Positions 6,574 through 60,244 of a DNA stretch of 64,000 nucleotides are shown in pieces. The first letter of the stretch is position 1, and the number at the start of each line of letters is the position of its first letter. The DNA is from a virus: IMG/VR virus record IMGVR_UViG_3300036766_001333, positions 1 through 64,000 of that record; one strand, written 5' to 3'. The notes beneath the pieces were generated by a model. The model was not told where the DNA came from, ran no database searches, and saw only the letters and a program-made list of their open reading frames with translations. The translations under genes were made by a program, and so were the position numbers.

Positions 6574-6641
6574 GAAAGCATTGTCATAAATTATTTTAAA
6601 AATAGCAATGCTAATTTATTAAATTGGAAAGTAAATAAGAT

Positions 6642-7970
6642 ATGGCAACTATCAATTTAGAAGATTGGCTCTTTCATGAACAAGGAGCGTATGGCACAGG
6701 TACAGACACAATGGATACTCCAGGTGGACCTCCAACATCTGATCCTAATATGGGAGGCATGGCAGTAGCACCTTCCCCCGGAGGCGATCCAAATATAACA
6801 AATCCAGCGAAACAAATGGCAGGATCAGCGAAAGAAAAAGACCCTAACCAGGAACTCCCTGATGTAACCAATGATCCGCAAACTCCTGACATGCCAAGTG
6901 ATTCAGAAAAAGAATCTCTTGATTTTGAAAGATGGAAGAAAAATTTCATTGTTGAATCTATTAAAGGAGATGTTCAAACAATGAAAATGGCTCTTATGGA
7001 CGTAAGGGATCGTGAATTAGATACTTATCAACATAAATTTGTTGAAGATAACTATCAGATTATTCTTTTAAGAGAATCTTCAAACATAGAAAAAGCTTCA
7101 ACTGAGCTTAGGAAAGAAATAAAGAGCAATTTAGATCAAAATAATCCAGCCAGTTCAATTGTTAATCACATGATAACAGTATTGCAAAAACAACCATTGC
7201 TTAATAATTGCTTTATAAAAATGACTGGTTTACTTGGCTCAAAGTCTGATGCTCATCGTAAATTTATTGCTGGGTTGACTGGCAGTGTTCAAGTAGGTAA
7301 TGGAGCCATCAATGAAGATTTAATTTTAAATGAGAAAGAATATTCTGCTCGTATCTCTACAAGATTTAATTCAAGATTTGGTGAAGTTCATATAGGACAG
7401 TGGTGTTTAAGAACTGATGATCCAGCTAGATATTTAAAGCCTCCAGAGCTTAAAAGATTAGAGGATGGTTCTCCAGAAGAAAAAGACGTTCTTAGAAGAA
7501 GAATAGTCATGGAATCAATAGCCGACACCTTTAAGACTAGAGCTTTCATTATTAATGTGGTTGGAACAGATGGCACGATCTATACTTTAGGTTGGGATAT
7601 TGCTACATCTTTAAAAGAAGCTTATACAGAAGGCAAATTAGTAGTTAGAACTAAAAGTGATGATAGTAGTGAGGCTATGATTACTGATGACGGAGAAATC
7701 GTATCATTTGCTGAAATCAAGATAATGTATATCCAAAATACAAGAGAAGTTGATGAAGAAGGCAAACCAGAGAAAAAAGAAATAGAATTTATATCATCCA
7801 AATATGGCCAATTGTTCTTAACGGCACAGCTTCCGATACTAAGAGAAGCTTCTACTTCATTCCAAGGTATAATTTTAAAAGAAATGCCGTGGCAAGGTAA
7901 TCCTAGCGACCTATTAACCCTTAGAAGGTGTGTCCCAAGTTTGCTTGAATTGTTATTAAGAACTTGTTAA
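6642..7970 (+). CDS. Hypothetical phage protein, 3' end possibly altered by endonuclease gene insertion
   Basis: The 442-residue protein has three parts: a capsid-targeting-like start (INLEDWLFHE), a disordered Gly/Pro/Asp-rich linker (residues about 12-90), and a long mixed alpha/beta region. I do not recognise the family. It precedes the tape-measure cluster, so a virion or tail-assembly role is plausible. The last residues after PSDLLTLRR read like random sequence, and the stop lies at the start of the LAGLIDADG gene, so the original C-terminus may have been displaced. A GTAAATAAG late-promoter-like motif ends three bases before the ATG. Confidence 0.6.
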   Translation: MATINLEDWLFHEQGAYGTGTDTMDTPGGPPTSDPNMGGMAVAPSPGGDPNITNPAKQMAGSAKEKDPNQELPDVTNDPQTPDMPSDSEKESLDFERWKKNFIVESIKGDVQTMKMALMDVRDRELDTYQHKFVEDNYQIILLRESSNIEKASTELRKEIKSNLDQNNPASSIVNHMITVLQKQPLLNNCFIKMTGLLGSKSDAHRKFIAGLTGSVQVGNGAINEDLILNEKEYSARISTRFNSRFGEVHIGQWCLRTDDPARYLKPPELKRLEDGSPEEKDVLRRRIVMESIADTFKTRAFIINVVGTDGTIYTLGWDIATSLKEAYTEGKLVVRTKSDDSSEAMITDDGEIVSFAEIKIMYIQNTREVDEEGKPEKKEIEFISSKYGQLFLTAQLPILREASTSFQGIILKEMPWQGNPSDLLTLRRCVPSLLELLLRTC

Positions 7971-10055: not shown

Positions 10056-13000
10056 ATGGAAGCCCGTGATGGAATAGGTCGAACAGTTAAAATGCAAGAC
10101 AATTTAACTGTCGAAGATTTAGTAAAAGCATTAGATCAAAATGAAATCAGTGTCAAACCTAATGAAGCTGAATTAGAGATGGTCCGTAAACAAGAAGAAT
10201 ACAACAAAACAGGAGACATATTAAAGAAACATTTAGAAAAATTAGTCAAACAATCTGAAGGGCAACAAAAAGCCATAGACAAATTAAATGATAAGTTAGT
10301 TGAGGCTATGAAGCTCAATGAACAATACAGAGATAAAAAAGATAAGCAGACCCCAGAAGAAAAAGAATATTACAAGAAGGCTGTTAAAAAAGGTAGCATT
10401 TATGTCCATGATGAAGGGACACATAAATTATTAGAACAAATGATTCCTTTGTTGGGCGGGAAGGCTGCTGGAAATATAACTGGTGTTGCAGGATCATTTT
10501 CATCAGACCTTCAAAAAACTCTGGAACTGTTGAATAAAGTAGCAGTAAGTGGAACTCAGTTAATTGATAGTGTCACACTAATAAACAGAAAAGGCGAACT
10601 AGGAACAGGCACAGGGAATATTCCAGGAATACCTGCCCCACCGAATCCTGACCCTGAAGTATTAAAAGATATTGAGAAAGATAACAAAGCAAGCAAGGGA
10701 GTTTTTTCTGCCATGTTAGGTTGGTGGAAAAATTGGGGGAAAAAAGGAAATGATAAAGATAAGAGTAATCATGAAGATTTAAAAAAGATTTTCGGCATGG
10801 ATATTGGCACAAGAGCTAAAGAGAAATTTAGAAGTGTTGGAGCTACACTTGTTTCAGAAAAAGCAGGGGGAGTCGATGTAGCCGACAAATTAATACGTGC
10901 AATGAATTTAGAAAGATTAATTGGTGGAATATTTAATATTACTGGAGCCGTCATAGGAAAAGCATTAACGGCTTTTTTGCCGGAAGTGTTTAACAAAATT
11001 AGTAAAACAGTTGGTAAATTTTTTGGCGGTATTGCAGAAACAAGTGCAAGCATATTCCTAGAACCTCTTAAAAAACAACTTGAAACATATAGTGACATAA
11101 GACAAGTAATAGATCAGACAACCAGAGGATTAGGTCTAAACAATAAAGAAATTGAAAGTGGGTCTATTGGTATAAAAGAAATTCGTGAAACGGGACAAGA
11201 TATAAATACAATACAAAAAGAATGGATCAAAAACTGGAAAAGAGGCATTCAAGAAATAGGAAAGACAAAGAAAGTTTTAACAACCGGCTTATCTACAGCT
11301 TATTTAATAGGATCAAGTGCAAGTGAAACTTCTGATATGTTCTCAGATTGGCATCAAAACTTAAGACTATCAGTAGGGGATTTAGGCATTATGGGTAGAG
11401 GTTTAGTAGAAATATCTAAATCTACAGGAGTTACTGGAGACAATTTACTTAGAGTAGCCAAATCTGCCGGACAATTAATGCAGAATATGAAGGACGCTGG
11501 AACCTTTACTACGTCTTATGGGAAAATGATAACCAAAATTCTAGCTGAAGCTTCAAAAGTAGGGGCAGAAGATATAGGCAAAGAAGTTCTCCAAATGATG
11601 CAAGGAGGACTAGCTTTTGGTGGAGGAGATGAAAGTTTAAAAAGATTTATGACTATGGGTGCTGGTGCTGTTGGTCCTGCTGGTGGCATGTTGACAGATA
11701 AGTTATTTAAAGGGCAAAAATTATTACCAGAGGAAATGAAACAATTAGCTACAGGCATGGAGCGAGTTATTCAAGACATGATTGATGATATAGCACCAAT
11801 TGGAACAAATTTCAAAAATTTAAACGAGCAGCAAAGGGAAGACCTGAATTTTCAAATGAAACTTGCTTTTGGGGAAAAAATTAAATCAGAGAAAATGCTT
11901 GCCTTCATAGAATCTATGAGAAAAGGATCAAAAACTTTCGCTGAAACCTTAGAAGACTTAACTAAGGAAGGCGAGAAAAATATTTCGGCAGAGAAAACAA
12001 AGCAAATAGAACAAGAAAAAAGTAATCTTATTACAAGTGAATCTTTAGACCTTTTTTCAAAATACAATGACTTACTTCAAACAGAAGGACCAAATGCATT
12101 AAAAAAATTCATGGAAATGCCAGGAGTGAAAGAAAGTTTAACAGCCTTAAATGTAAAAGGCACAACAGAGCCAGAAGTTTTAAAAGGATTATTACAACCA
12201 GTAATTAATAATTTGAACAAAAAAATTACATCCGATCCAAAATTATCAAAAACCATGAAGCCTTTCGATAGTAATGTCATAAAAGATGCATTAGATAAAG
12301 GTGCTAAAGGCATCGAAGACTTATTTGAAAATATAAACGAAGTTCAAAACCAGATAATTATACAACAAAAAGCCAATCTCGATCCAGTTAAAGCTCTTGA
12401 ATTTGCGGTTAATCAGTTATCAGGATCAGTTCAAGAATTGGCCTCAAATTTAACATCAAAATTTCACGAGTCACTCACAAAACTAGTAGTTAATTTGGAC
12501 AATTTAATCACAGCATTTACACGTTTATCAGATGAAACTAAGACAGTAATAGGATTATTAGTTGGTGGAGGCGGATTGGTTTTGGCGCTTGCAACAGTTG
12601 CAGGTACAATAAAAAATACAATTGAAGTAATTAAAACATTACGAGGATTAGGAGCAGTTCCAGGAGCAGCAGGAGCAGTTCCAGGAGCAGCAGGAGCAGT
12701 TCCAGGAGCAGCAGGAGCAGTTCCAGGAGCGGTTCCAGGAGCAGCAGGAGCAGTTCCAGTTGCCGCAAGTCCGTTGGTTCTTGCTAGCCTCCCAACTGCA
12801 CTAGCAGGATTATTTTATGTCCTCAAAAAAGGCAATGATGCTACAAGTGAAAGAACAGATGCGTTGATGGCAGAAACCCCTAAATTAATTGCAAATTTAA
12901 AGCAACAAAACAAAAACATGGAAAGTAGCGTAGCCAAAGTAAATGCAGATAAAATTAAAGAGGAAATGCAAAACCTTAGTCAACAAACAATAGCTTTAGC

Positions 13001-27984: not shown

Positions 27985-30008
27985 TGCCTCAAGGAAGTAA
28001 TTATCCAAGTCAATTCGATGATGAAAAAAATTTGCTTATAGCACATGATTCTTTACAAGTAACTTTAAAAAGAGATCATTACATAGGAGAAAATTTTGTT
28101 TTAGTGGATGGAGATACAAATAAATTTCCTGAAAATGGAATTATAACTTTAACAGACCAATGCAGTGATCCAAATGACCGATCAGTATCTTTCTATTATG
28201 GTAAAAAAAACAAAGAAGGATTCTTTGAATTAGAATTACTTCCAGAAAGTAGAGATGTTTTTAAATCCAAAAAACTCACTACTGTTTCTCAGCAAGTAAT
28301 GGCCGAATACCATGAAATCATTAAAAATTCAATTATAGCTATTGAAGAATTCATGGGGACAAGAAACACTATAGATACACAACCTAATGGCTCAACTATA
28401 TTTGGCAGGATTAATTTCTTAAGAAATCTTCTGTATGCACCTAAAGCATGGTTTGAAGCAGACAAAGTATTAGGACTTGCTCCATTAACAATCAAATTTA
28501 AAAGTGTGAGTAGTGGAAAAGATATTATATGCGACTGGAATTTTGGAGATGGCACTGAAGATCAAACAATAAATCCTGAAATTATTAAAATATATACTGA
28601 GCCTGGAATATATGACGTTAGTTTAACTGTAAGTAATGCATTTGGATCAGATAATGTAATATTTCAGAAAATGATACAAGTTAAAGCAGAAGCTCCTGAA
28701 GAGGCTTTTATTGAATTTACTCCTAGCGAAAATCAAATATTAGATGCTCAACAAAAATTAAGAACTTCAATAAATGAAATTATAAATCTAGAAGTTCCAC
28801 AAGGCATAAGCCCCAAAAATGCGACAAAAAGATATTCGGGAGAGGCAGTTAATGATGAACAACAACCTTTAAATGCCATTACTAAATACACTTGGAACCT
28901 GAGTGATGATTTGCCACATGATAATCTTCCAAAAACTGTAGCATCTTATAGTATAGGCGGATTATATGATGCCATATTAAGAGTAGATACTAAATTTGGG
29001 ACTTATAGAACTACAATAATGCCCAAGTCTATTGACGTTATTGAATTTATAAATCTATGGCTGTGGACAAAAACTGACAGTGCCTATTCCGCACATGAAT
29101 TTGGCCTTATATGTGAAACTTTTAAATCAAATTATAATATACCACTAATTATAAATAGAAATAATGATTCTTTAATTTCTGACAGGTCAAAAAAAGAGTT
29201 TCAATTTAACAATGGTTTTGCTCCTAAAAATAATTCTTCTGGACACAAAGGTAATGTTTTACTTTTTTGGGCTAGCGATGAGAACAAGATTGAATTTGTT
29301 GAATATAACGCTTTTTTAGATACATATAATTTTTCAATAAATCCAATGACTCGACCTTGGAATTGGGTGTCCCTAATATCCCCAACCACCATATATTTTA
29401 TATTAGGAACGACAGAAGGATTGCCGCCACCAACGACTTCTCCTACAAATCAAACCAAAACCTGTTTTAGTATAGGAGATGGATTTACAAAAAATGAACC
29501 GCTTACTTATCTAAACGGGGCACATGAATTAGGTAAAAATGCAGTTACTTATGATAAATATGGTGAACCAACTGAGGGGCATTTTAGTATCTATAGAACT
29601 GCTTGGAAAGATCAATCTGGCTATCTTTTAAGAAGTAGCGATCAAGGAAACTTAAGTAATTTTTATAAGACAGAAGGAACTTTAGGCTATCCTTTTATAA
29701 ATTTAACAAAATTAGTAGACATGCCACATCTAAATAACAAAGACGGCCAAATGGTATCTTTAAGTGAGGGCATATATTTCTTTGGCAGTACAGGTACAGT
29801 AGCCGCTTTTAAAGATACAACCGGAACTTGGGAAGTCGGACCACAAGCTAACATAAATAATGAATTTATATTGGCTACATCAGACGGAGATAAAAGGGCT
29901 TATTTAACTACTAAGGATAAATTAATAAAATTTAATGAAGTAGATTTAACATTTACAACAATAGCGTCAATTCCTGGAACGGAACAATGGTTAATTGGCG
30001 TGTATTAA
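27981..30008 (+). CDS. Virion appendage protein with PKD domain and long C-terminal beta region (paralogue 2 of 3)
   Basis: The 675-residue protein repeats the N-terminal module (FVLVDGDTNKFPENGIITL, then MAEYHEIIKNSIIAIEEFMG). A clear PKD domain follows (APLTIKFKSVSSGKDIICDW, then NFGDGTEDQTINP), then a second PKD-like stretch (about 285-355) and about 320 further beta-rich residues. The C-terminal part has repeated short blades (for example GTLGYPFINLTKLVDMPHL, then GIYFFGSTGTVAAFKDTTG) and could be a beta-propeller. It is likely a receptor-binding or decoration protein. Confidence 0.7.
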   Translation: MMPQGSNYPSQFDDEKNLLIAHDSLQVTLKRDHYIGENFVLVDGDTNKFPENGIITLTDQCSDPNDRSVSFYYGKKNKEGFFELELLPESRDVFKSKKLTTVSQQVMAEYHEIIKNSIIAIEEFMGTRNTIDTQPNGSTIFGRINFLRNLLYAPKAWFEADKVLGLAPLTIKFKSVSSGKDIICDWNFGDGTEDQTINPEIIKIYTEPGIYDVSLTVSNAFGSDNVIFQKMIQVKAEAPEEAFIEFTPSENQILDAQQKLRTSINEIINLEVPQGISPKNATKRYSGEAVNDEQQPLNAITKYTWNLSDDLPHDNLPKTVASYSIGGLYDAILRVDTKFGTYRTTIMPKSIDVIEFINLWLWTKTDSAYSAHEFGLICETFKSNYNIPLIINRNNDSLISDRSKKEFQFNNGFAPKNNSSGHKGNVLLFWASDENKIEFVEYNAFLDTYNFSINPMTRPWNWVSLISPTTIYFILGTTEGLPPPTTSPTNQTKTCFSIGDGFTKNEPLTYLNGAHELGKNAVTYDKYGEPTEGHFSIYRTAWKDQSGYLLRSSDQGNLSNFYKTEGTLGYPFINLTKLVDMPHLNNKDGQMVSLSEGIYFFGSTGTVAAFKDTTGTWEVGPQANINNEFILATSDGDKRAYLTTKDKLIKFNEVDLTFTTIASIPGTEQWLIGVY

Positions 30009-30036
30009 ATCCAACATTTGTTTTTATATATATTTT

Positions 30037-32256
30037 ATGCCAGCAATCCCAGAATTATTATACCCTGTAGATTTAGATTCAGACTATACATTATTCAAAG
30101 CGTATAATAGTACGCAAGGCATCCTTTCTAAAAACATAGACTTAGAAACAGATGAAATTGAACTAATAACCAAAGATGATTATAATTGGCCAGGTAACGG
30201 TTTTGTAACCATAGAAGAAGAGTTAATTTATTACGATCAGACTGAAAGAAATGACTTTGGAAAATTAATAAAATTAAAAAAGTGCTTAAGAGCCATAGAA
30301 GGAAAAAGAGCAGCACATTTAGCTGGATGTCCCATATATGGAAATGTAGTGGCGCAACATCACAATCGCCTAGTTGATTCAATAGTTCAAATAGAACATA
30401 CAATAGGAGATTTAAGAGAATTATTAAACACGCCAGAGCAAATGTTAATTGCAAATGTAGATATGGGATTTTCGGAATCTCTCCATGCTGCTTTAGGGAA
30501 TTTAACATATTGCGCACCTGTTGGAGATGATGCGTGTCCAGATGTAGAATTTGAATTTAATTTTTTGTCTCCAACAGAAGCAGAATTTTGTTTAAGAATA
30601 TTTGGAGAATATACATCTTTTAAAATAGATTTTGATGATGGTAATTTTACTACAACTGAATTTGCTGGAACGCATACTTATAGCGGAGCAGGAACATATA
30701 GTCCCACAGTTACAGTGGAATCACTAAAATGTTGTATTTTACAACAACCAACAACCCCTACAGAGGGATGTGAAGCCCCAATATTGCCAACACCTTCAAT
30801 ACCGTTTTCTGTAAAAATACCAGACGTTCCAGAATTCCCATCTTTTATTAGGCCAAGTCAAACATGCCCAGGACAATTATTTAATTTGCCGCCTATATTA
30901 ATTCCGTCGATGACTGCATGTGAGCCAAGTTCTACTTTTTTATGTACTCCTATAGATTGTCCAGAAAACAGTCAAATATGCAGTTTTATAATAAGTGTTA
31001 TTGGAGATGTCTTCCCAAGTATAATAAGCATAGAAGGCTGTTGTCCTCCAAGCATTATTTCAATAATTAGTTGCACTTTTCCTAGTGAAATATCAATAGT
31101 TGGCTGTTGTCCTCCTAGCGTTATTAGCATAGAAGGCTGTTGTCCTCCTAGCGTTATTAGCATAGAAGGCTGTTGTCCGCCTAGCATCATTAGCATAGTT
31201 GGTTGTTGTCCGCCTAGCATCATTAGTTTTAATTGTTGTGTCCCAAGTGAAATAACTTTCAATTGTTGTCCTCCCAGCGAAATATCAATAGTTGGCTGTT
31301 GCCCTCCTAGTGTCATCAGTTTTGATTGTTGCAATTTCCCAAGCATAATATCTTTTGCAGATTGTTGTAATTTCCCAAGCACTATTAGCCTTATTGCAAA
31401 ATGTTGTGAATTCCCTAGCGTTATTAGCATGACATGTTGTGATATACCTAGTGAAATCAAACTTGTCGGTCCTAGTGAAATCAAACTTGTCGGTCCTAGT
31501 GAAATCAAACTTGTCGGTGCCCCTAGTGAAATCACCATTGTTGGGACAATACCTAGTGAAATTACACTTACTGGCACAGCAGCAATCCCTAGTGAAATTA
31601 AAATTATATGTTGCACTATACCTAGCGAAATTAAAGTTACTTGCTGCGAAAATCCTCCAAGTTTTGATTGTATTAAATTCTGTGACCCTCCAAGTTTTTC
31701 GCCTATACAGTTTGGTACACCACCTACAGTTAATGTTAATTGGGGAAGTCCGCCAACATTGTCTTGCATTGTTAGTGTGAATTGTCCATCCACATCAAAC
31801 ATGGCTGGTCCTCTTGAAGAGTTTGAAAATGCAATAGGGGGAGGAGAAATTCCTAATATACCTGTAGCTTATGAAATACCAGAAGTAATAAAACTGGTAC
31901 ATAATCTACCTAGAGAATTAACCCTAAAGGTTCCTGAGAACATAGTTATAAAAACAGACATGCCTACCTCGATAAAATTAGAGGCAGCAGATTTGCCCAA
32001 AAGTATAAAGCTAGAACCGGCACCTAATTTTCCAAGTGTAATAAGGGTAGTGGATATGCCGGATACTTTGTCTGTAACTGGAATACCTAAATCAATTGAA
32101 ATTATTGGTTTCCCAAGTTTTATTCAAATGGTTATGCCAGAGAATCCAGTTGTTGAAATGAAATACATGGGAGGTGCAATGCCTCTTGATGTAAGAGTTC
32201 ATCTAACAATAGACAAAATCCTTAGTGATATCATTATTGCCAATCCAGCTAACTAA
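30037..32256 (+). CDS. Virion appendage protein with Cys-rich PS-x-I-S repeat array (paralogue 3 of 3)
   Basis: I took the ATG at 30037, after TTTTATATATATTTT; an in-frame ATG exists 42 bases upstream. The 739-residue protein repeats the shared N-terminal module (YNWPGNGFVTIEEELIYY, then VAQHHNRLVDSIVQIEHTIG) and a shortened PKD-like domain (FKIDFDDGNFTTTEFAGTHT). A long array of about 11-residue repeats then appears (GCCPPSVISIE and variants, later PSEIKLVG). The C-terminus is beta-rich without cysteines. The periodicity suggests an elongated beta-solenoid or fibrous stalk. About 40 cysteines, many as CC pairs, are extraordinary for a phage fiber. Confidence 0.72.
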   Translation: MPAIPELLYPVDLDSDYTLFKAYNSTQGILSKNIDLETDEIELITKDDYNWPGNGFVTIEEELIYYDQTERNDFGKLIKLKKCLRAIEGKRAAHLAGCPIYGNVVAQHHNRLVDSIVQIEHTIGDLRELLNTPEQMLIANVDMGFSESLHAALGNLTYCAPVGDDACPDVEFEFNFLSPTEAEFCLRIFGEYTSFKIDFDDGNFTTTEFAGTHTYSGAGTYSPTVTVESLKCCILQQPTTPTEGCEAPILPTPSIPFSVKIPDVPEFPSFIRPSQTCPGQLFNLPPILIPSMTACEPSSTFLCTPIDCPENSQICSFIISVIGDVFPSIISIEGCCPPSIISIISCTFPSEISIVGCCPPSVISIEGCCPPSVISIEGCCPPSIISIVGCCPPSIISFNCCVPSEITFNCCPPSEISIVGCCPPSVISFDCCNFPSIISFADCCNFPSTISLIAKCCEFPSVISMTCCDIPSEIKLVGPSEIKLVGPSEIKLVGAPSEITIVGTIPSEITLTGTAAIPSEIKIICCTIPSEIKVTCCENPPSFDCIKFCDPPSFSPIQFGTPPTVNVNWGSPPTLSCIVSVNCPSTSNMAGPLEEFENAIGGGEIPNIPVAYEIPEVIKLVHNLPRELTLKVPENIVIKTDMPTSIKLEAADLPKSIKLEPAPNFPSVIRVVDMPDTLSVTGIPKSIEIIGFPSFIQMVMPENPVVEMKYMGGAMPLDVRVHLTIDKILSDIIIANPAN
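31005..31660 (+). repeat. Degenerate ~33-bp tandem repeats (PSxIS..CC array)
   Basis: About 20 units lie in tandem. The best copies are near 31105-31200 (GGCTGTTGTCCTCCTAGCGT and close variants). Three almost perfect 24-base copies of CCTAGTGAAATCAAACTTGT with the following GGT(C/G) lie near 31449-31520. The protein unit is (CC)PPS-x-I-S-I-x-G. The mix of perfect and diverged copies shows several rounds of expansion. Confidence 0.88.
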
Positions 32257-33913: not shown

Positions 33914-33967
33914 GAATCTGCATAGATATAAATGACAGGGACGAGTATTCACAAGGAGTGTTTAAAA

Positions 33968-34552
33968 ATGAGCGTATTTAGAGTTAAATTACAAATGTTA
34001 CCAAATCAAGGTCAAATGGATATTAATCCAACTACAGGATTGCCATTTACCACAAGTATTCAACGTACTATGTACGTAGCTGGCCCAAGGCGTATTTATC
34101 GTAAGTTATTTGATGGTGAAACTTTCACTGATTGCAATTACTGGAAGCGATTTGCACAACCTCAGGCTTCCGCAGACACCGCTTTTATTGAAGTAGTAAC
34201 AGACGATGGAAGTGTTTATTCTGATATAGAAGAAGAAAATACTTTCCCAAGAAGCTACTCAGTATCCGTACTTTCCAGTGATACCTTTGACACTAACTTC
34301 ATTGATATCCTTGGCGATCTTGGTGGTGCTGCTAACTTCGTTCAGATCACGAATACAGGCACGTCTTCACCTAGCCAAGACGTAACAATAGAACTCAACG
34401 GTTCCTCTGATGCAACATTCGTATTAAAGGCAGGCGATACTCAGGTATTCAATGCTGGCGATCTTGCAGTCACAGCCCTTGCTTTTGATGGAGGATCATC
34501 TACCGCAGTAGTTAACATCCTCTTGGGCGTACACGTTCAATGTGCTAGCTAA
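33968..34552 (+). CDS. Probable abundant virion (decoration/structural) protein
   Basis: I chose the ATG at 33968, with GGAG nine bases before, over one at 33932. The 194-residue protein is beta-rich with an Ig-like C-terminal half (SPSQDVTIELNGSSDATFVL, then AGDTQVFNAGDLAVTALAF). Codon use is visibly richer in C-ending codons than in its neighbours, and a strong GC-rich terminator follows at once. Both features point to very high expression, as for a major structural or head-decoration protein. The major capsid protein itself is expected just beyond the right end of the window. No named family recognised. Confidence 0.62.
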   Translation: MSVFRVKLQMLPNQGQMDINPTTGLPFTTSIQRTMYVAGPRRIYRKLFDGETFTDCNYWKRFAQPQASADTAFIEVVTDDGSVYSDIEEENTFPRSYSVSVLSSDTFDTNFIDILGDLGGAANFVQITNTGTSSPSQDVTIELNGSSDATFVLKAGDTQVFNAGDLAVTALAFDGGSSTAVVNILLGVHVQCAS

Positions 34553-34609: not shown

Positions 34610-35626
34610 ATGCTATTAAAAAGAACACTCTCAAAAAGAAATTTAGTTAAAGCCCCAGAAATATCCTTAAAAGATTTCCACCGAAAAAGAAATTCAATAT
34701 TGATAATAAGAAATGCCAGAGGTATAGGCGACATTCTAATGCATAGAATGATGTTTGAAGATTTTAAGCGTATTATGCCTGAATGTCGTTTAATTTTTGC
34801 TTGTCCTAAACAATATCATGATTTAGTTAAAGATCACCCTTATGTTGATGAAGTAGTAGATTCCGCAACTGTTAATCGTTTCAATTATATTGTATCTTAC
34901 GATACTAGTTATTGTGATATAAGATATGAGTGTAGTATGGCTCCCTATATAGATAAACATCGAGCAGATATATGGGCAGAGCATTGTGGTGTTATTCTTA
35001 CTAAACATAACATGCATTTATCATTTTTAGATGCCGAGAGTCTTCAATTTGGTATTTTACAAGTTCGACAAGCCAAAAATATGAACATGCAACTATATGA
35101 CAAAAATAGTCCAAGCGTATTATTCTGTCCTATTGCTTTTGATAAATTGAGGTCTTTAACCAACAAACACATAGAGGATGTGGTTTCGTACTTAAGAGAA
35201 AAAGGAGTCTTTGTTTATAGTACTCACCAAACTAAGATTCCAATATTAAATGATCTTAATGTCCCAACATTTACAGGCTACAGTACTAAAGAATGGCTAA
35301 GTTTTATTCATGCAGCAGATTATGTAATATCAGTAGATACAGCATCTTTTCACTATGCAGGGGGCATTAAAAAACCATTAGTTGGAATTTTCACTTACGC
35401 AGATGGCAAATATAGAGGCAAATACTTTGATTTTACATTGGTACAAAAGCATAGAGATAATGGGGATTGGCCATGTGGTCCATGCTATAATCATACAATG
35501 TGTACCCATCCAAAATGTAAAAATCCAAGTTCGTTAACCGAAACTAAGCCATGTTTGACAGAATTGAAATCCAGTGAGATTATTGATGGTATAGAAAAAA
35601 TGTTTGAAAAACATCCTTTTGGTTAA
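34610..35626 (+). CDS. Glycosyltransferase family 9-like (heptosyltransferase-type) protein
   Basis: The 338-residue protein matches the GT9 layout. The N-terminal Rossmann half has RNARGIGDILMHRMMFEDFK (nucleotide-sugar enzymes of this family have G-x-G-D near the start) and DEVVD. The C-terminal half has YVISVDTASFHYAGGIKKPL and VGIF. GT9 enzymes add heptose to lipopolysaccharide. A phage copy could modify virion proteins or the host envelope. The C-terminus carries an unusual Cys cluster (PCGPCYNHTMCTHPKC). It starts just after the strong terminator, so it needs its own promoter. Confidence 0.72.
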   Translation: MLLKRTLSKRNLVKAPEISLKDFHRKRNSILIIRNARGIGDILMHRMMFEDFKRIMPECRLIFACPKQYHDLVKDHPYVDEVVDSATVNRFNYIVSYDTSYCDIRYECSMAPYIDKHRADIWAEHCGVILTKHNMHLSFLDAESLQFGILQVRQAKNMNMQLYDKNSPSVLFCPIAFDKLRSLTNKHIEDVVSYLREKGVFVYSTHQTKIPILNDLNVPTFTGYSTKEWLSFIHAADYVISVDTASFHYAGGIKKPLVGIFTYADGKYRGKYFDFTLVQKHRDNGDWPCGPCYNHTMCTHPKCKNPSSLTETKPCLTELKSSEIIDGIEKMFEKHPFG

Positions 35627-35647: not shown

Positions 35648-35657
35648 ACTATATATT
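35648..35657 (+). promoter_or_regulatory. Putative promoter of the actin-like operon
   Basis: ACTATATATT lies directly before the ATG at 35658. The same ACTATATAT string occurs between the divergent genes near 49850. No Shine-Dalgarno precedes the ATG. Confidence 0.33.
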
Positions 35658-35861
35658 ATGGCATATTTAATAAAAGCTCCTATCTCAACTCAAGGAAATG
35701 AGTGTATTATTCATTTAGAAATTTCTTTAAATGTTAATGTAAATGGACAAGAACAAAAACCAGGACAAGTTCTAGAAGAAAAAAAAGAGGAAGAACATAA
35801 TTGGCCAATGCCTGAATTTGATTCATCCAACAAAATAAATTTTGGAAAGGAAAAATCATGA
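35658..35861 (+). CDS. Small hypothetical protein, first gene of actin-like operon
   Basis: This 67-residue protein has a beta-strand N-terminal half (MAYLIKAPISTQGNECIIHL) and an acidic, probably disordered tail. It overlaps the actin-like ATPase gene by four bases (ATGA), so the two are translationally coupled. No family recognised. Its position resembles that of small regulators or adaptors in actin-like partition operons, but it has no DNA-binding motif. Confidence 0.5.
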   Translation: MAYLIKAPISTQGNECIIHLEISLNVNVNGQEQKPGQVLEEKKEEEHNWPMPEFDSSNKINFGKEKS

Positions 35862-36889
35862 GTATATCTGTAGATTGTGGTACTTATAATTTAGTAGCTT
35901 GCACCAGGGACGAAAACAATGGCTTCAAAAAGAAAAGAGAAGTAAATGCATTTGTTCAACTTTCATTAGAGGATAAATTTCTTTTTAATATGATGCGAGG
36001 CAAAAATGTACCAATTTTAGAAGAAAAAAGAAAAGATGGACAAAAAAATAAAGTAGGCTACTTATTAGGAGAATCAGCAATTAGCATGGCCCTTGCATTT
36101 AATCAAGTTGAACTAAAAAGACCAATGCGTAGTGGATGTGTTAATCCTAAAGAATCAAATGCCTTTGAAATATTAAAGGTAATGATCCATAGCTTGCTTG
36201 AAGGCATGGTAAAACATGATAAAGAAATACTTTATTATACCATTCCCGCTGAAGCTTTAAACGAAAAAACTAACGTTGAATATCACTCTAAAATACTTGA
36301 ATTAATATTTAAGGCTTTTGAATCATCAGAAGGCTATAAAGTAACTCCAAATCCAATAAATGAAGGATTAGCACTTGTATACGCAGAATTAGAAGCTAGA
36401 AATTATACTGGATTCTCAGCTTCTTTCGGGAGCGGTATGGTAAATGTATGTTTCGCCTTATTTGGAGTGCCAGTTTTTAGTTTCGCATTAGTTAATAGTG
36501 GAGATTGGATAGATGAAACATGTGCAGAAGCAACTGGCGAATCAATAGCTTTTATTAACAAGGCTAAAACAGAAACAAGCTTAATAACTACTCCTACAAA
36601 TCTAATAGAACGTGCAATTCAAACTCAATATAAAATAATGATAGAAAAAACGGTTGTAGGCATTAAAAAAGGATTAGAAAATTCAAACAAAAAAGCTAGA
36701 GTAGACCAAGATGTTGATTTTGTTATAGCTGGGGGCACTTCTATGCCTGAAGGATTTGATACTTTATTTAAGGAAGTTATAATGCAAGTTGACTTGCCTA
36801 TAAAAATTGGAAACATTGTTAGACCGCCTGATCCTCTTTACAGCGTAAGTAGAGGGGCATTATTGGCTGCTGAGGCCGCTTCAAGGTAA
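35858..36889 (+). CDS. Actin-like (ParM/MreB/Hsp70-fold) ATPase
   Basis: The 343-residue protein has the actin-superfamily nucleotide-binding signature. Phosphate loop 1 is SVDCGTYNLVAC at residues 4-15. A GYLLGESAI segment and the INEGLALVYAELEA helix precede phosphate loop 2, FSASFGSGMVNVCFA (about 186-200). The adenosine motif is DFVIAGGTSMPEGF near 287-300. The length equals a bare actin-like core, and the Hsp70 substrate-binding domain is absent. ParM-like proteins polymerise to move DNA; phage actins can position virions or genomes. Function here is open. It lies in a tight operon with two small proteins. Confidence 0.8.
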   Translation: MSISVDCGTYNLVACTRDENNGFKKKREVNAFVQLSLEDKFLFNMMRGKNVPILEEKRKDGQKNKVGYLLGESAISMALAFNQVELKRPMRSGCVNPKESNAFEILKVMIHSLLEGMVKHDKEILYYTIPAEALNEKTNVEYHSKILELIFKAFESSEGYKVTPNPINEGLALVYAELEARNYTGFSASFGSGMVNVCFALFGVPVFSFALVNSGDWIDETCAEATGESIAFINKAKTETSLITTPTNLIERAIQTQYKIMIEKTVVGIKKGLENSNKKARVDQDVDFVIAGGTSMPEGFDTLFKEVIMQVDLPIKIGNIVRPPDPLYSVSRGALLAAEAASR

Positions 36890-36906
36890 TTTATAAAGGA
36901 GACTAC

Positions 36907-37554
36907 ATGGATAATAATCATTGTGAAGGGTGCAATTGTACTTATTGTGACGAAGAAAAACAAAAAGAATTTAAAATTCTTTTAAATGACAAAAAACAAA
37001 CAATTCCTGAATTAATGTGTTGTAGCGAACAGACAATTCATACATTCATCAATCAATCTAAGGATGATGTAAAAAAACTATTAGAGGATGAAATTAAACG
37101 TAAGACTGAAGATAAAGCAGGATTATTAATTTTAAACGTCAATAAAGAACCTAAATTAGCTTATGAAAAAGAATCTTCTGAAGTTGAAGTAAAATTAAGA
37201 TCAGTTGACGGCTTAGTAAAATCTATAGAGGATACAACAACTGAACACTTAAAAGCCACATGGCGAAAATTATCTGGAGTTCTTCCAGAAAGCTATGGTA
37301 TGGATGATACTAAGAGTATAGATTTAATGGCTGATGTATTAAAAGCCATACAAAAGAAATTTGCCAGTCTAAAACTTGACTGGTCGGATGAAGGATTCTT
37401 CAAAGTATTGTTAATAAATCAAGCTAGAACCAATATAAAACAAGAATATGTTTATGACTTATATGGTTCCCTTAAATTAATGTTTGGGGAGCATGAGTCT
37501 ATAGATTTTGTAGCAGAGATAATTGGTAAAAAACTAGCATCTTTATTCTCATAG
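36907..37554 (+). CDS. Cys-rich-headed helical protein, partner candidate of actin-like ATPase
   Basis: The 215-residue protein starts with CEGCNCTYC (a likely zinc knuckle), followed by an EEKQKEFKILLNDKKQTIPE helix and a further CC pair. The rest is helical and acidic. It begins 17 bases after the ATPase stop, with AAAGGAG nearby upstream (TTTATAAAGGAGACTACATG context). No family recognised. Its operon position makes it the best candidate for a filament-binding or cargo-adaptor protein. Confidence 0.55.
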   Translation: MDNNHCEGCNCTYCDEEKQKEFKILLNDKKQTIPELMCCSEQTIHTFINQSKDDVKKLLEDEIKRKTEDKAGLLILNVNKEPKLAYEKESSEVEVKLRSVDGLVKSIEDTTTEHLKATWRKLSGVLPESYGMDDTKSIDLMADVLKAIQKKFASLKLDWSDEGFFKVLLINQARTNIKQEYVYDLYGSLKLMFGEHESIDFVAEIIGKKLASLFS

Positions 37555-37600: not shown

Positions 37601-37834
37601 ATGGAATCAGATTTAGTACATAAATCCGTATCAGATTTAGGTGCAGCCGCTTACGTTATGATGCACAAGTATAAAGTAATCGGCAGACAAGGAAAATCTA
37701 TATATTTTGAAGTAGAAGAAAAAGAACAAGATGCATTTGATAATTTAGTGCTAGAATATCTATCAAGTGAATTTCACCGATTTGATTCATGCTTAATGTC
37801 ATTGAAGAAAATCGGTGAATTTATGCCAAAATAA
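37601..37834 (+). CDS. Small hypothetical protein
   Basis: The 77-residue protein has a helix, a short hairpin (YKVIGRQGKSIYFEVEEKEQ) and a helical C-terminus. It is preceded by AGGGAAAA. No family recognised. It is 46 bases downstream of the Cys-rich protein and may belong to the same transcript. Confidence 0.5.
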   Translation: MESDLVHKSVSDLGAAAYVMMHKYKVIGRQGKSIYFEVEEKEQDAFDNLVLEYLSSEFHRFDSCLMSLKKIGEFMPK

Positions 37835-45172: not shown

Positions 45173-46312
45173 TCAATCGGGTTTCCTAAGTCCATACGCT
45201 TTAATTCCCGTAATTCCTACGGTACTCATTCCTTGTTTCAATATCATTCTAGATGCATTGTAATCACGGTCATGTACTTTACCACAAACGCATGTCCAAG
45301 TGCGATCTTTAAGTTTTAGATTTTGATTTATCCATCCACAATCCTCACAAGTTTTACTAGATGGAAACCAACGATCTACCCTTCCTATAATGCGTCCGTA
45401 CCAATTAGATTTATATTCTAATTGACGATTAGTTTCATAGAAGGCGGCATCTTGTATCGCTCCTGCTAGACAATGATTTTTCATCATGTTCTGCACTGCC
45501 AAATCTTCAAGAATTATTACTTGATTTTCGTTAATAATCTTTCTGGTTATTTGGTGCAGATGGTTTGTTCTGATATTCTTGATTTTCTGATGTATCTTTG
45601 TTAATTTTTTTCTTATTTTTTCTCTATTTTTGCTCCCTTTCTTTTTCCTGCAAAAATTTCTCTGGAGACGTTTCATCTTTCTCTGTAAAGTTTTATATGG
45701 TTTGATATTTTCATACTTTGTGCCATCTGAACACGTTGCGAGTGTTTTTATCCCTAAATCTATACCTACTGCTTTATCGGTTTTTGGCAACTCTGGAATT
45801 TCTCTTTCTACAGTAATACTAACATAATATTCTCCACTTTTATTTTTGCTAACCGTAGCAAATTTGATTTCTCCTTCAATATTACGGTGTTTGACCATTG
45901 TGATGCCTTCAAGAAACTTCGGAATATAAAGTTTATAATCGTCTACCTTGACCGATTGTGGTACTCGAAACGATTGGTATGAGTGTTTGGACTTATATTT
46001 AGGAAACCTAGCCCTACCTGCGAAGAAATTGTTATATGCACCATCCAAACACTTCAGAGAATACTGTAAACTCTGACTACCAACTTCTTTTAGCCACACC
46101 AAAGACTTCTTCAATTCTGTTAATTCCTTAGCATTGTCATAGTAATTGAGACTGGTCTTGTCGGCAAGGTAGGCATTTTTTCTTCTGGTCAAAAAGTAAT
46201 TATAGAGATATCGTGTCGCTCCAAAGTGTTTAGCTAATAAAATACATTGGGCTTCTGTAGGATAAAGTCTAAAACGGTAAGAGCACATGAACATTCTTAT
46301 GCTAGTTTCCAT
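45173..46312 (-). CDS. tnpB: TnpB RNA-guided endonuclease (IS605 OrfB family)
   Basis: I took the ATG at 46312; ATGs at 46294 and 46288 are alternatives because the family usually starts near YRFRLYPTEAQ. The 379-residue protein has an N-terminal helical region, then a RuvC core: Asp185 in VGIDLGIKTLA, Glu269 in VIILEDLAVQ, a zinc finger of Cys322, Cys325, Cys341 and Cys343, and Asp350 in HDRDYNAS. All three RuvC acidic residues are present, so it looks active. TnpB cuts DNA next to a short motif guided by RNA from its own right end. It is uninterrupted. Confidence 0.92.
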   Translation of the reverse strand: METSIRMFMCSYRFRLYPTEAQCILLAKHFGATRYLYNYFLTRRKNAYLADKTSLNYYDNAKELTELKKSLVWLKEVGSQSLQYSLKCLDGAYNNFFAGRARFPKYKSKHSYQSFRVPQSVKVDDYKLYIPKFLEGITMVKHRNIEGEIKFATVSKNKSGEYYVSITVEREIPELPKTDKAVGIDLGIKTLATCSDGTKYENIKPYKTLQRKMKRLQRNFCRKKKGSKNREKIRKKLTKIHQKIKNIRTNHLHQITRKIINENQVIILEDLAVQNMMKNHCLAGAIQDAAFYETNRQLEYKSNWYGRIIGRVDRWFPSSKTCEDCGWINQNLKLKDRTWTCVCGKVHDRDYNASRMILKQGMSTVGITGIKAYGLRKPD

Positions 46313-46314
46313 TC

Positions 46315-46334
46315 TAGTATAATATAGTATACTA
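46315..46334 (-). repeat. Left-end inverted repeat of TnpB element
   Basis: TAGTATA and TATACTA flank a 6-base ATATAG loop, a perfect 7-bp stem three bases upstream of the tnpB ATG. Subterminal hairpins like this are recognised by TnpA in IS605-type elements. Confidence 0.6.
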
Positions 46335-46353
46335 ATAAGTTTTTTTGCTGTAT

Positions 46354-46371
46354 ATGATAAATACAATAGTT
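46354..46371 (+). promoter_or_regulatory. Putative late promoter
   Basis: ATGATAAATACAATAGTT precedes the ATG at 46372. GATAAATAC fits the TAAATA motif, ten bases from the start codon. Confidence 0.35.
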
Positions 46372-46977: not shown

Positions 46978-47895
46978 ATGGCTTATCGTATTCTAAGCAT
47001 TGATGGCGGAGGAATTTATGGTGCAATTTCAGCCACATTAATAGAAAGAATTCATAAAAAATACCCAAATTTCTTAAACAGTGTAGATTTATACGCAGGA
47101 ACTTCTATTGGTGGCGTAATTTCTCTTTTAATTGCAAACGATTTTCACCCTAATGAAATCAAACAATTCTTTCTGAGATATCCACCAATTATTTTTGAAA
47201 ATAATTTCTTAAGAAGAATATTAAATTATTTTGGCATCACGGCAAAATACTCTAACAGAAATTTAACTTATGTGCTTTCTAAATATTTTGGTGATAAAAC
47301 GTTAGGCAATTTACACAAAAAAGTTTTAATTCCTGCTTTTGCAATAAATTGTTGTGCAGGGCCGTCACAATGGCGAGCAAAAATATATCACAATTTTGAA
47401 GGATCGGATTCAGATAAAAATGAGAGCATAGCAAAAGTTGCATTAAGAACCACTGCTGCTCCTGTGTATTTCCCAATATTTGAAAACTATATTGATGGCA
47501 CTCTAGTAGAAAATAATCCATCAATGTGTGCGATTGCTCAAACTCAAGATAATCGTGCCATAATAAATCCTCGGCCTGCCTTGAAAGATATAAAGTTAAT
47601 TTCAATTGGAAGAGAACAAACGAACCATTATATCCAAGGGAAAAATTTAGACTATGGTTTCTTAAGATGGGTGAAGCCATTAGTTCAGATGACTTTAGAT
47701 AGGGATTGTAGAGTTGTACATTATCAAGTTGAAAAAATATTAGAAGAAAATAATTATTACAGACTTGCGCCAGTCCTTTCTCCAACCTTAGATAAAGGAA
47801 TTGATAATTGGAGAAAAACAAATAGTATAATAAATGTTGCAAATCAATTTAATTTGGATGATGCATTCCAGTGGATTGAAAAAAATTGGTACTAA
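46978..47895 (+). CDS. Patatin-like phospholipase
   Basis: The 305-residue protein has the oxyanion loop DGGGIYG at residues 9-15, the nucleophile Ser43 in GTSIGG, and the dyad Asp173 in YIDGTLVENNP (DGG/A in most relatives, here DGT). These fit the patatin family, which cuts fatty acids from membrane lipids. There is no signal peptide. A phage copy might act in lysis, on the host membrane during infection, or as a virion enzyme. Bacterial patatins of this size also serve as CBASS effectors, but no cyclase is nearby. Confidence 0.85.
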   Translation: MAYRILSIDGGGIYGAISATLIERIHKKYPNFLNSVDLYAGTSIGGVISLLIANDFHPNEIKQFFLRYPPIIFENNFLRRILNYFGITAKYSNRNLTYVLSKYFGDKTLGNLHKKVLIPAFAINCCAGPSQWRAKIYHNFEGSDSDKNESIAKVALRTTAAPVYFPIFENYIDGTLVENNPSMCAIAQTQDNRAIINPRPALKDIKLISIGREQTNHYIQGKNLDYGFLRWVKPLVQMTLDRDCRVVHYQVEKILEENNYYRLAPVLSPTLDKGIDNWRKTNSIINVANQFNLDDAFQWIEKNWY

Positions 47896-56464: not shown

Positions 56465-59400
56465 ATGGCGTGGACAGATTTTTTTAAGCTTTTTAATAGT
56501 ACCTTTACATTAGACCCATTATCTAAAAAATCAGATAGAAAAAATCTACCAAGCGCAGGCGTATCATCAAATGATGTTTTTCCTGATCCTAGAAATACTG
56601 ATAGCTTATCTTCTGGGACAGGCGGCTTCATAAGAGTACAAAACGATTTAGTCGATCTTACAACTACAACTAATCGAGTAAACCGATATAAAGAATATGA
56701 TAGATTAGTTGCAAGTATATCTGAAATTGAAATGGCAATGACAGTATTTGCCGATGAAGCTTGCGTATATGAAGATACAATCATAAATACAGTCTTTCAT
56801 GGCCCTAAAACCATTAAATGGCTACAACAAAATAAAACAGATGATAAGTTTCCAGTATATTGTTATGACTTTAAAAAAGAAGATTATACAGTTGGATGGT
56901 CCTATGCTCCAAGATTTGTTAAAAAAGCAAAAACCGTAAGGGTTATTCTTGATAATGGAGAAATAGAAATAGTAACTCCAGATCACAGAATACTAAGAAA
57001 AGATGGCGAATGGATAATGGCAGAAAATTTAAAGTTTGGTGATAAATTAATGCCATTTTACAAAATAAAAGCAAATCAAAATTTAACTAAAGTTAAAACT
57101 AAACAATTTCCAAGAATTTTTACACATAATAAAGGCTGGATACATGAACGTCAATTTTTAGATGAATGGAGAAGTGGGAAAGATTTACCAGAATATGAAA
57201 AAGTAAACAAATTAGGCAGATTGCTAGCCCAAAAACTTCATGTAAAAGATATCGCAAAATTAATGGGAGTCGCAGCACCTACCCTTGAATACCAGTTATC
57301 AAGTGAAGGATTTAGCTGTAAAGAATTCAGGTTATTATCTAAAAACTTATCTTACAGAAGGGTAATCAAAGTAGAACCCTGGCATGAATTAGATGTATAT
57401 GATTTGTCTGTAGAAGATCATAAAAACTTTTGCACTCAGTCTTTAGTAATGCACAATTGTCAAAAAGATGAAGATGGACAAGTTTTCAAAATAACATGCA
57501 AAAATCAAGATGTAAAAGAAGAATTAGAAACTTTATTCTTTAAAGTCCTAGAATTCGATCAATTGAATATTTGGGATAAAGCTAAAAGACTATTCATAAA
57601 AGGAGATGCATTTTGGGAAATAGTAGTAGACCCGGATAATCCAAAAGATGGAATTCTAAAGATTGCCGATTTGCCCCCAGATAATATGTATAGAATCGAA
57701 TCGACTAAAGGCAAAGTTCTTGAATATCAACAAGCAAAAGAAGGTCCAGATTATCAGGCTTTACTAAAAGCTCCATTAGGAATGGCTACTGATAATGAAT
57801 TAGCACAGTCTATGGCCATTAGATTTACCCCTGACCAAATCATACATTTAAGAATTGGAGATTATAGAAAATCCTTTTATCCATATGGCGTTAGTTTAAT
57901 AGAACCAGCCAGAGGACCAGCCCATCAATTAAAAATGATGGAAGATAGTATGGTCGTATATCGACTTTGCCTTGCTGGTAATACTAGAATTAGAACGGCA
58001 GATTATTATAAGTATATTAAAGATTTAGATATTGGCGATATTGTTTATAGTTTCTCCGAATCTGGCAAACAAATGCCAACGACAGTAGAAGCTGTTAAAA
58101 ATAATGGAAAGCAAAAAGTTTATGACGTTATTTCTAGGCATGTAAGTATTCGTGGTAATGAAACGCATCCAATTTTAGTTAACAGAGATGGCGTCTATCA
58201 ATATGTTGATGTTAAGAACTTAATTCCTGGTAAAGATAAATTTATATTAACCACTAAAGATGTTGGATTTATTCCTAGTATTCCAAGGATTTACGGACCA
58301 ATGTGGGCTAAGCTTAATGACGAAGCTAGAAAAGAATTTAAAAATAAACGCTTTAAAAACAAATCTCAACTAATGAGGCAATGTTCTTCTGAATTTGGAA
58401 GAGTAAGACAATTCTTATATACTAAAGGTAAAGCATTGCCTTTAGAAAGAGCCAAAGAAATATGTAATATATTTGGCATAGATGAATCCAAATTATTGCT
58501 AGTTAATAAAGGGGAAAATAATTCTGAAAGAATAAGTTTACCTGAGCGAGTCACTGAAGAATTTGCTAAGTTATTTGGTTTTATTTGTGGTGATGGGTCT
58601 ATTCATAACAACAATCAAATTTCATTTTCTTCTTCAGAAGACGACCAAATAAATCAATATTATTCTGGACTACTTCAAAAGTATTTTGGAAAGGTAAGAT
58701 TCGAGTTAGATAAAAGATCAAAAAAGAAATTAGGCAAATTTGTATCTGATTCTACAACTGCATGTAAAGTATTTGGTGCTATGGGATACATTCATAATCA
58801 CCACAACACGAGAATACCAAAATGGGTGTTTAATTCTCCTAAAAATATTCGACGAGCATTCGTTGAAGGGTTGTCAGATGCAGATGGATGTGAGCGATTT
58901 ACCAAGAAAGGCACTTGGTTTTCTACAATTGAATTGTGTAATGAGAAACTAATAGAAGACATTAAAGAATTATGGTCTTCTATTGGGCTTTGTTCAGGAC
59001 AGTTAAAGAAAAGGACAAGAGAAAATAAGCACTTATTACTTGGTAGAAAGCTACCTGTAAAAACCACTTCTTATTTGGTTACTATTAGTGATAATTTATT
59101 ACCTAAAGAAGAAAATATAACAAAAGTAGTAGAGGTTGGAGAGGAAGATGTATATGACATCACTGTGAATTCTAATTATCATAATTTTATAGCTAATGGC
59201 ATTCCAGTTCACAATACAAGAGCGCCTGAGCGTAGAATATTTTACATAGACATCGGTGGTCTTCCCAGCTTTAAAGCTGAAGCTTTCATTAACAGAATGA
59301 AAGATCAGTTTAGGAAGAAGAAGATGACTCATAATATGAATAATAGTACGACTGGAGCTTCGGCTGTAGATGAAAGATGGCACGCTCCAGCCGTAGATGA

Positions 59401-60244
59401 GGATATTTGGATTCCAGTAAGACAAAATTCAACTACAAGAATAGACACTTTACCTGGCGCACAAAACTTAGGAGAAATAGATGACACAGTTTATTTCAGA
59501 ACCAAGTTATTTGCCGCACTTAACTTTCCACCTAACTACTTCTACTCACAAGATGCAAATGCTACTAGAATTACACTTTCAGCGAATGATGTAAAATTTG
59601 CCAAGTTAATAGAAAGATTACAAGCTTATATGGAATATGGCTATAAAGAAATAGCCATAAGACACTTAAAATTAATAGGTTATCCAGAAAATACATTTGA
59701 AGACATAAAAATAAAGATGACGCCACCTTCTGATTGGCGAGAATTAAGTCGAGCAGAAGTCATAACAAATAGAATTAATAATGCTAATTCTCTTAAAGGC
59801 TCCCAATTGTTATCTGATTATGATATCTTAACAAAATGGATGAAATACCCAGAAGATGAAGCAAAAGAAATGATAGCTAGAATGAAAATTCAAAAATTAG
59901 AAGACTTAAAGCTTCAAGTTCTAGCTCAAAATCCTCAATTGCTTGGCGTTGGCATTCCAGGTATGGGCGAACAAGAAATTTCAGCACAGCCAGGCGGTCC
60001 TAACCCAATGCTAGGTCCAGATCAACAAATGCCACCAGGAGGTCCACCAGCAGGCCCAGAAGGTCCGCCACCTGAAGTTGCACCACAATCAATGGAGAAG
60101 TCTGAACCGGCACCTGAACCGCAATCTCAGGCCAAACCGTTACCTAATCCAACAGATGATGATATTATTAAATACGATCTTGAACTTCAGGACTACGATC
60201 AGGATCAAGATTATGAAGAACCTGACTATAGTGAAGGAGAATAA
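56465..60244 (+). CDS. Portal vertex protein (gp20-like) interrupted by two inteins
   Basis: The frame is 1259 residues, but residues 100-331 and 502-917 are inteins, leaving a 611-residue portal. Extein signatures are gp20-like: YKEYDRLVASISEIEMAMTV before the first, IWDKAKRLFIKGDAFWEIVV and GVSLIEPARGPAHQLKMMED between them, and RRIFYIDIGGLPSFKAEAFI after the second. The C-terminal 100 residues are Pro/Gln/Asp-rich. The portal is the DNA gate and head-tail joint. AAGGA precedes the ATG. Both inteins lie in conserved parts, as usual for protein-splicing elements. Confidence 0.92.
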   Translation: MAWTDFFKLFNSTFTLDPLSKKSDRKNLPSAGVSSNDVFPDPRNTDSLSSGTGGFIRVQNDLVDLTTTTNRVNRYKEYDRLVASISEIEMAMTVFADEACVYEDTIINTVFHGPKTIKWLQQNKTDDKFPVYCYDFKKEDYTVGWSYAPRFVKKAKTVRVILDNGEIEIVTPDHRILRKDGEWIMAENLKFGDKLMPFYKIKANQNLTKVKTKQFPRIFTHNKGWIHERQFLDEWRSGKDLPEYEKVNKLGRLLAQKLHVKDIAKLMGVAAPTLEYQLSSEGFSCKEFRLLSKNLSYRRVIKVEPWHELDVYDLSVEDHKNFCTQSLVMHNCQKDEDGQVFKITCKNQDVKEELETLFFKVLEFDQLNIWDKAKRLFIKGDAFWEIVVDPDNPKDGILKIADLPPDNMYRIESTKGKVLEYQQAKEGPDYQALLKAPLGMATDNELAQSMAIRFTPDQIIHLRIGDYRKSFYPYGVSLIEPARGPAHQLKMMEDSMVVYRLCLAGNTRIRTADYYKYIKDLDIGDIVYSFSESGKQMPTTVEAVKNNGKQKVYDVISRHVSIRGNETHPILVNRDGVYQYVDVKNLIPGKDKFILTTKDVGFIPSIPRIYGPMWAKLNDEARKEFKNKRFKNKSQLMRQCSSEFGRVRQFLYTKGKALPLERAKEICNIFGIDESKLLLVNKGENNSERISLPERVTEEFAKLFGFICGDGSIHNNNQISFSSSEDDQINQYYSGLLQKYFGKVRFELDKRSKKKLGKFVSDSTTACKVFGAMGYIHNHHNTRIPKWVFNSPKNIRRAFVEGLSDADGCERFTKKGTWFSTIELCNEKLIEDIKELWSSIGLCSGQLKKRTRENKHLLLGRKLPVKTTSYLVTISDNLLPKEENITKVVEVGEEDVYDITVNSNYHNFIANGIPVHNTRAPERRIFYIDIGGLPSFKAEAFINRMKDQFRKKKMTHNMNNSTTGASAVDERWHAPAVDEDIWIPVRQNSTTRIDTLPGAQNLGEIDDTVYFRTKLFAALNFPPNYFYSQDANATRITLSANDVKFAKLIERLQAYMEYGYKEIAIRHLKLIGYPENTFEDIKIKMTPPSDWRELSRAEVITNRINNANSLKGSQLLSDYDILTKWMKYPEDEAKEMIARMKIQKLEDLKLQVLAQNPQLLGVGIPGMGEQEISAQPGGPNPMLGPDQQMPPGGPPAGPEGPPPEVAPQSMEKSEPAPEPQSQAKPLPNPTDDDIIKYDLELQDYDQDQDYEEPDYSEGE
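56762..57457 (+). other. Intein 1 in portal protein (mini-intein, 232 residues)
   Basis: The intein starts at Cys100 (CVYEDTIIN). Block B is VTPDHRIL. The C-terminal blocks are VYDLSVEDHKNF and SLVMHN followed by Cys332 as the +1 residue. The LAGLIDADG endonuclease is absent. Instead a short helix-turn-helix-like stretch lies in the middle (LGRLLAQKLHVKDIAKLMGV), perhaps a remnant. All splicing residues are present, so it should splice. Confidence 0.93.
57968..59215 (+). other. Intein 2 in portal protein (LAGLIDADG intein, 416 residues)
   Basis: The intein starts at Cys502 (CLAGNTRIRT). Block B is GNETHPIL. It contains LAGLIDADG helices at LFGFICGDGSI and FVEGLSDADG with intact acidic residues. 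The C-terminal blocks are VYDITVNSNYHNF and GIPVHN followed by Thr918 as +1. It is a full-length, probably mobile intein, different from intein 1 in size and +1 residue. Confidence 0.95.

Follow-up and report, generated by a model that had tools for sequence, protein, structure and literature searches.

A volactin-family actin gene with conserved small partners, a cytoskeleton candidate in T4-like phages

The locus lies in a 64-kb window (64,000 nucleotides, the whole stretch of DNA that was analysed), part of a 77,880-base virus record that is probably a fragment. On the forward strand, an operon comprises a small upstream gene of 67 aa (35658..35861, +), a gene for an actin-fold ATPase of 343 aa (35858..36889, +), and a gene for a variable partner of 215 aa (36907..37554, +). 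These open reading frames stand exactly as delimited in an earlier note on this DNA, and the stop of the 67-aa gene and the start of the 343-aa gene do overlap in ATGA, the coupling described there. Just outside this three-gene unit is a downstream gene of 77 aa (37601..37834, +), and a putative promoter-like element, CTATATAT (35649..35656, +), sits just upstream of the 67-aa gene. The operon is preceded by a 206-aa gene (33932..34552, +), for which family searches returned no match and no function, and a glycosyltransferase family 9-like gene (34610..35626, +; PF01075, E=5.7e-5, just over the cut-off).

The window encodes a portal of T4 type (PF07230, E=1.9e-65) as well as baseplate genes, from which the earlier label of a T4-like phage is fair. 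The actin gene is located between the baseplate and portal genes, co-directional with virion-type genes, with the glycosyltransferase among its near neighbours and primase and exonuclease genes slightly further out; the adjoining virion genes indicate shared expression at most, not cargo. Elsewhere in the window, the portal gene (56465-60244, 1259 aa) contains intein splicing and homing-endonuclease domains, and there are genes for an IS605 OrfB/TnpB-like protein with a Cas12f1-like TNB domain (45173-46366, −), a patatin-like phospholipase (46978-47895), and a tRNA nucleotidyltransferase-like protein (3189-4748, −), yet no tRNA genes were found in the window. Tandem repeat arrays occur within large genes at 31080-31534 and 12650-12754, and the gene at 29995-32256, with a weak PKD-domain match below the cut-off, may encode a fibre or adhesin.

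Its sequence assigns the 343-aa protein to the volactin family of actins, as a phage-encoded member that matches Pfam Volactin (PF25216) over positions 1-321 of the 321-position profile (E=8.5e-58, 196.8 bits; curated cut-off, 35 bits). Among 14 control genomes, the cut-off was exceeded in Haloferax volcanii only, and a Haloferax homologue is 32% identical to the phage protein over 343 columns (BLASTP). An AlphaFold2 model (66 sequences; pLDDT, 92.3; pTM, 0.89) placed MamK, MreB, and F-actin at the top ranks of a Foldseek search of the PDB (MamK filament 5ljv, TM 0.69/0.73), with a fold-match identity of about 14–17% to MreB or MamK, and a sequence-profile search from the actin family likewise returned MamK (E=6e-9) and MreB (~3e-5). 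The “actin-core ATPase” of the earlier note therefore holds, with its nucleotide-binding motifs present, a full-length PF25216 match, and a predicted actin fold; the idea of a filament system holds up as well, the predicted fold being nearest to MamK, MreB, and F-actin, which form filaments, and not to Hsp70 or sugar kinases, the placement that the note had named as telling against it. Distant actin-fold proteins also turned up in a viral structure library, Gp506 of Bacillus phage G and Hsp70 homologues of plant viruses among them. PHROGs contained no family for the phage actin, the Pfam search gave no ParM family match, and a search for Alp6A found nothing. Membership of the ParM family was rejected, the Pfam family being Volactin and the top fold and profile matches MamK and MreB, as was an Hsp70 chaperone, since the 343 aa form a single actin domain lacking a substrate-binding domain.

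The ATPase motifs comprise DxGT (D6-G8-T9), a glutamate at the catalytic position (E169), and GGTSxPxGF (G292, G293, G299, F300), with D6, G8, T9, E169, G292, G293, and F300 invariant or nearly so across the family alignment. The phosphate-2 motif, SFGxGMxN, is non-canonical, with a serine where MreB and MamK have an aspartate; this serine is invariant in the aligned family (79/79 rows, viral and cellular alike), and the loop is also that of a Haloferax homologue. With the aspartate replaced by serine throughout the family, turnover by the phage actin may be slow. The Haloferax protein, the one volactin for which filaments have been characterised, forms dynamic filaments in vivo and affects cell shape (PMC10869688). 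Since a Haloferax homologue shares the loop and Haloferax volactin is dynamic, the serine is a family signature, not proof of a dead enzyme.

Relatives were collected in a degenerate-pattern scan that used a mixed alignment and returned 435 viral contigs, the best 80 of 435 being kept, and a second query returned 425 viral contigs with a volactin relative, a set that may overlap with the first 435. Contigs bearing a relative reached 595 kb (LR756511), followed by 533 kb, 527 kb, 485 kb, and 427 kb. Conservation was counted over 82 loci besides the window, one of which (L004) belongs to a second group and lacks window-type partners. In some 80 viral loci, what stays constant is a set made up of a ~70-aa gene (79/82), the actin gene, and the 77-aa gene (77/82); homologues of the 206-aa gene and the glycosyltransferase-like gene were present in 76/82 (median offset, −1.9 kb) and 62/82 loci, respectively. 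All genes of the three-gene unit first proposed are real, but conservation singles out as partners the ~70-aa gene upstream and the 77-aa gene downstream, the latter left out of the note, and not the Cys-rich 215-aa gene.

The 67-aa family has 14 residues that are invariant among 16 sequences, with the pattern ECxLxIxIDLNINLN in the N-terminal half and a C-terminal tail of W.IPDF....K.NFGK. The 77-aa protein (DLGAAAYVMMHKY...FHRFDSCLMSLKKI) was found in 77 of the 79 loci with sequence at the corresponding offset, in the same orientation each time, and in most relatives the homologue is a ~150-aa protein made of two tandem copies of one domain. Its AlphaFold2 model (pLDDT, 93; beta-alpha-beta-beta-alpha-alpha) had no convincing structural match in the PDB, and DUF5659 (PF18903), a family considered for it, had no match above the cut-off in nine records. 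The 215-aa protein, which starts with MDNNHCEGCNCTYC, is present in about 21/82 loci and shares with its relatives a conserved C-terminal domain of about 75 residues alone, the N-termini being unrelated. The cysteine cluster CEGCNCTYC at its N-terminus is private to the window phage and missing from relatives, so the Cys-rich head on which the earlier note had built is not borne out as a functional feature. At one locus (L075), a terminase large-subunit-like protein (607 aa, 5536-7359) directly downstream of the actin gene has an N-terminal ATPase match only (E=8e-12) and a long C-terminal half with no match; a candidate copy of the 215-aa C-terminal domain on this T4-type terminase-like protein is weak (profile E=0.6).

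The motif CTATAT[AT]A occurred within 60 nt upstream of 44 genes compared to 5.2 expected (pooled related loci, near-copies included), and many of these matches precede the first gene of the operon at a distance of 11–43 nt; the window copy has a mismatch at the last base. Among relatives, a Shine-Dalgarno-like sequence preceded the actin gene in 40/51 cases and the small upstream gene in 8/51. Together these patterns suggest that the operon starts at the small upstream gene, with the element as its putative promoter. Shine-Dalgarno-like motifs lie ahead of 12 of the 33 window genes checked. Neither the T4 late promoter (TATAAATA) nor a Bacteroidota-type promoter showed an excess over shuffles in the window, and both were set aside.

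Trees divided the viral sequences into two well-supported groups. In the free tree, cellular sequences fall between both viral groups, suggesting two separate viral acquisitions, but a single viral clade was not rejected (AU p = 0.61), which leaves the number of acquisitions unsettled at one or two. In the second, LR745208-like group, the volactin-family gene resides in another conserved, structural-looking cluster, again co-directional with virion-type genes, with a gene for a 462-aa protein upstream (60 loci), one for a 372-aa protein downstream (63 loci), and after the latter a gene for a long protein with a weak sheath-domain match (E=0.14); none of the small partners of the window was detected in this clade.

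Cellular matches to the phage actin came mostly from haloarchaea and from a few bacterial metagenome contigs. Bacterial volactin-family genes (L090:389-4679; L089:5923-11252) adjoin an ArsA-type ATPase gene on two contigs; on the one, from Patescibacteria, gas-vesicle GvpL/GvpF genes are also adjacent, and on the other, from Desulfobacterales, an Hsp20 gene. A link between bacterial volactin-family actins and gas vesicles is possible. An Omnitrophota contig (L157:5980-8452) carries two tandem volactin-family genes near a ParA-like gene.

From the family, fold, motifs, and conserved operon, as read from sequence or structure prediction, we infer that the 343-aa actin would use ATP to assemble dynamic filaments in the course of infection, and we lean, by a little, towards a cytoskeleton of the phage's own that positions virion parts or genomes. 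The filaments would position or carry virion parts or packaging-ready genomes within the host cell, as PhuZ does. The upstream ~70-aa protein, made in step with the actin, is probably an obligatory cofactor, with its W-IPDF-KxNFGK tail as a candidate binding motif, while the 77-aa, often tandem, protein is a likely adaptor or regulator of the filament and the 215-aa protein may act as a variable cargo adaptor. The main argument for a virion-related role is indirect, namely that both clades keep the gene among late or structural-looking genes.

A filament could instead move or tether phage DNA through a DNA-binding adaptor on a repeat array, as a partition or replication-site system of the ParMRC or AlpAC type, which we consider unlikely. 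There is precedent in prophage CGP3, where AlpC and the adaptor AlpA do so, the adaptor binding DNA and 24 alpS repeats lying in the promoter region (PMC4446434); that system is also phage-encoded, with an adaptor gene adjacent to the actin-like gene, and the operon described here has small conserved partner genes with primase and exonuclease genes nearby. It differs in having no alpS-type repeats: as the earlier note had observed in finding no repeat-rich centromere, no tandem repeats or repeat array were detected in or near the window operon, and a crude repeat scan of the relatives flagged two loci only, neither compelling and both chance-looking. The window operon leaves almost no intergenic room, gaps between adjacent operon genes in the relatives are mostly <70 nt, and neither the 67-aa nor the 77-aa partner matched a known DNA-binding family. 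The likeness to a ParM-type operon that the note had drawn is therefore lost, with the repeat array absent, intergenic space scant, partners without a match, and an actin that is Volactin and not ParM.

It is likewise improbable that the protein is a non-filamentous actin-fold ATPase that chaperones virion assembly, at steps such as building the tail or joining it to the head. The conserved structural-looking cluster around the second-clade gene and the viral Hsp70 homologues among the viral fold matches are consistent with such a role, to which the non-canonical phosphate-2 motif, suiting slow ATPase use, would lend itself. However, fold and profile searches both led to filament formers, the protein has no Hsp70 substrate domain, and the sole characterised member of the family forms filaments (PMC10869688). 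Least probable of all is host manipulation, in which the phage actin would copolymerise with or disturb host MreB, MamK, or volactin and so change cell shape or growth: Haloferax volactin does affect cell shape (PMC10869688) and there is profile similarity to MreB, but 14–17% identity to MreB and MamK in the fold match makes copolymerisation unlikely, and the conserved phage-specific partners, together with a gene orientation shared with virion genes, point to a part in the programme of the phage itself.

What is known of phage cytoskeletons comes mainly from tubulins, PhuZ and its relatives, with PhuZ acting in nucleus-forming jumbo phages; AlpC is the phage actin that has been studied. Like PhuZ of the Pseudomonas jumbo phages, the phage volactin would be a cytoskeletal gene of a large phage's own, for which a similar job is proposed here, whereas PhuZ has a tubulin fold, uses GTP, and shares no homology with it. 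MamK and MreB, the closest solved structures by fold and matched by sequence profile, differ in their identity (about 14–17%), their phosphate-2 motif, and their functions in bacterial cells. Volactin VolA (HVO_2015) of Haloferax volcanii is alike in the full-length PF25216 match, the SFGxGMxN phosphate-2 motif, and the 32% identity to a Haloferax member, but the archaeal gene belongs to cells, on a chromosome or plasmid, and has a tie to cell shape, whereas the phage gene falls in a deep clade apart and has conserved partner genes that are specific to phages.

No Pfam Tubulin match was found in nine records (eight volactin-bearing phage records and that of the window), a sequence-profile negative from records that may be incomplete and in which divergent tubulins are possible. 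The identical search recovered PhuZ in two controls, each time with a score under the curated Tubulin cut-off (phiKZ, E=2.6e-8; 201phi2-1, E=4.4e-7); PhuZ alongside volactin in the same phages was thus looked for and not found, though the control search worked. More tentatively, huge T4-like phages may have acquired a volactin-family actin once or twice and built around it a distinct virus cytoskeleton, with a co-translated small cofactor and an often tandem adaptor of unmatched sequence, that would do the PhuZ-type job, such as capsid or tail trafficking, in phages that lack tubulin.

In the literature searched, a partial coverage, phage volactins were not found to be described, and the volactin papers, judged from their titles and abstracts, do not involve phages; a 2020 survey of huge phages mentions tubulins and not actin, and the text matches from a 2026 jumbo-phage review include no phage actin. 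Hundreds of viral contigs carry, together with conserved small partners, an actin whose family was described from a single cell-shape protein of an archaeon. The factors that bind volactin were, according to its authors, as yet unknown (PMC10869688), and the ~70-aa and 77-aa partners are candidate regulators for the family. The phage volactin provides a testable cytoskeleton candidate for uncultured huge phages, which form a large class.
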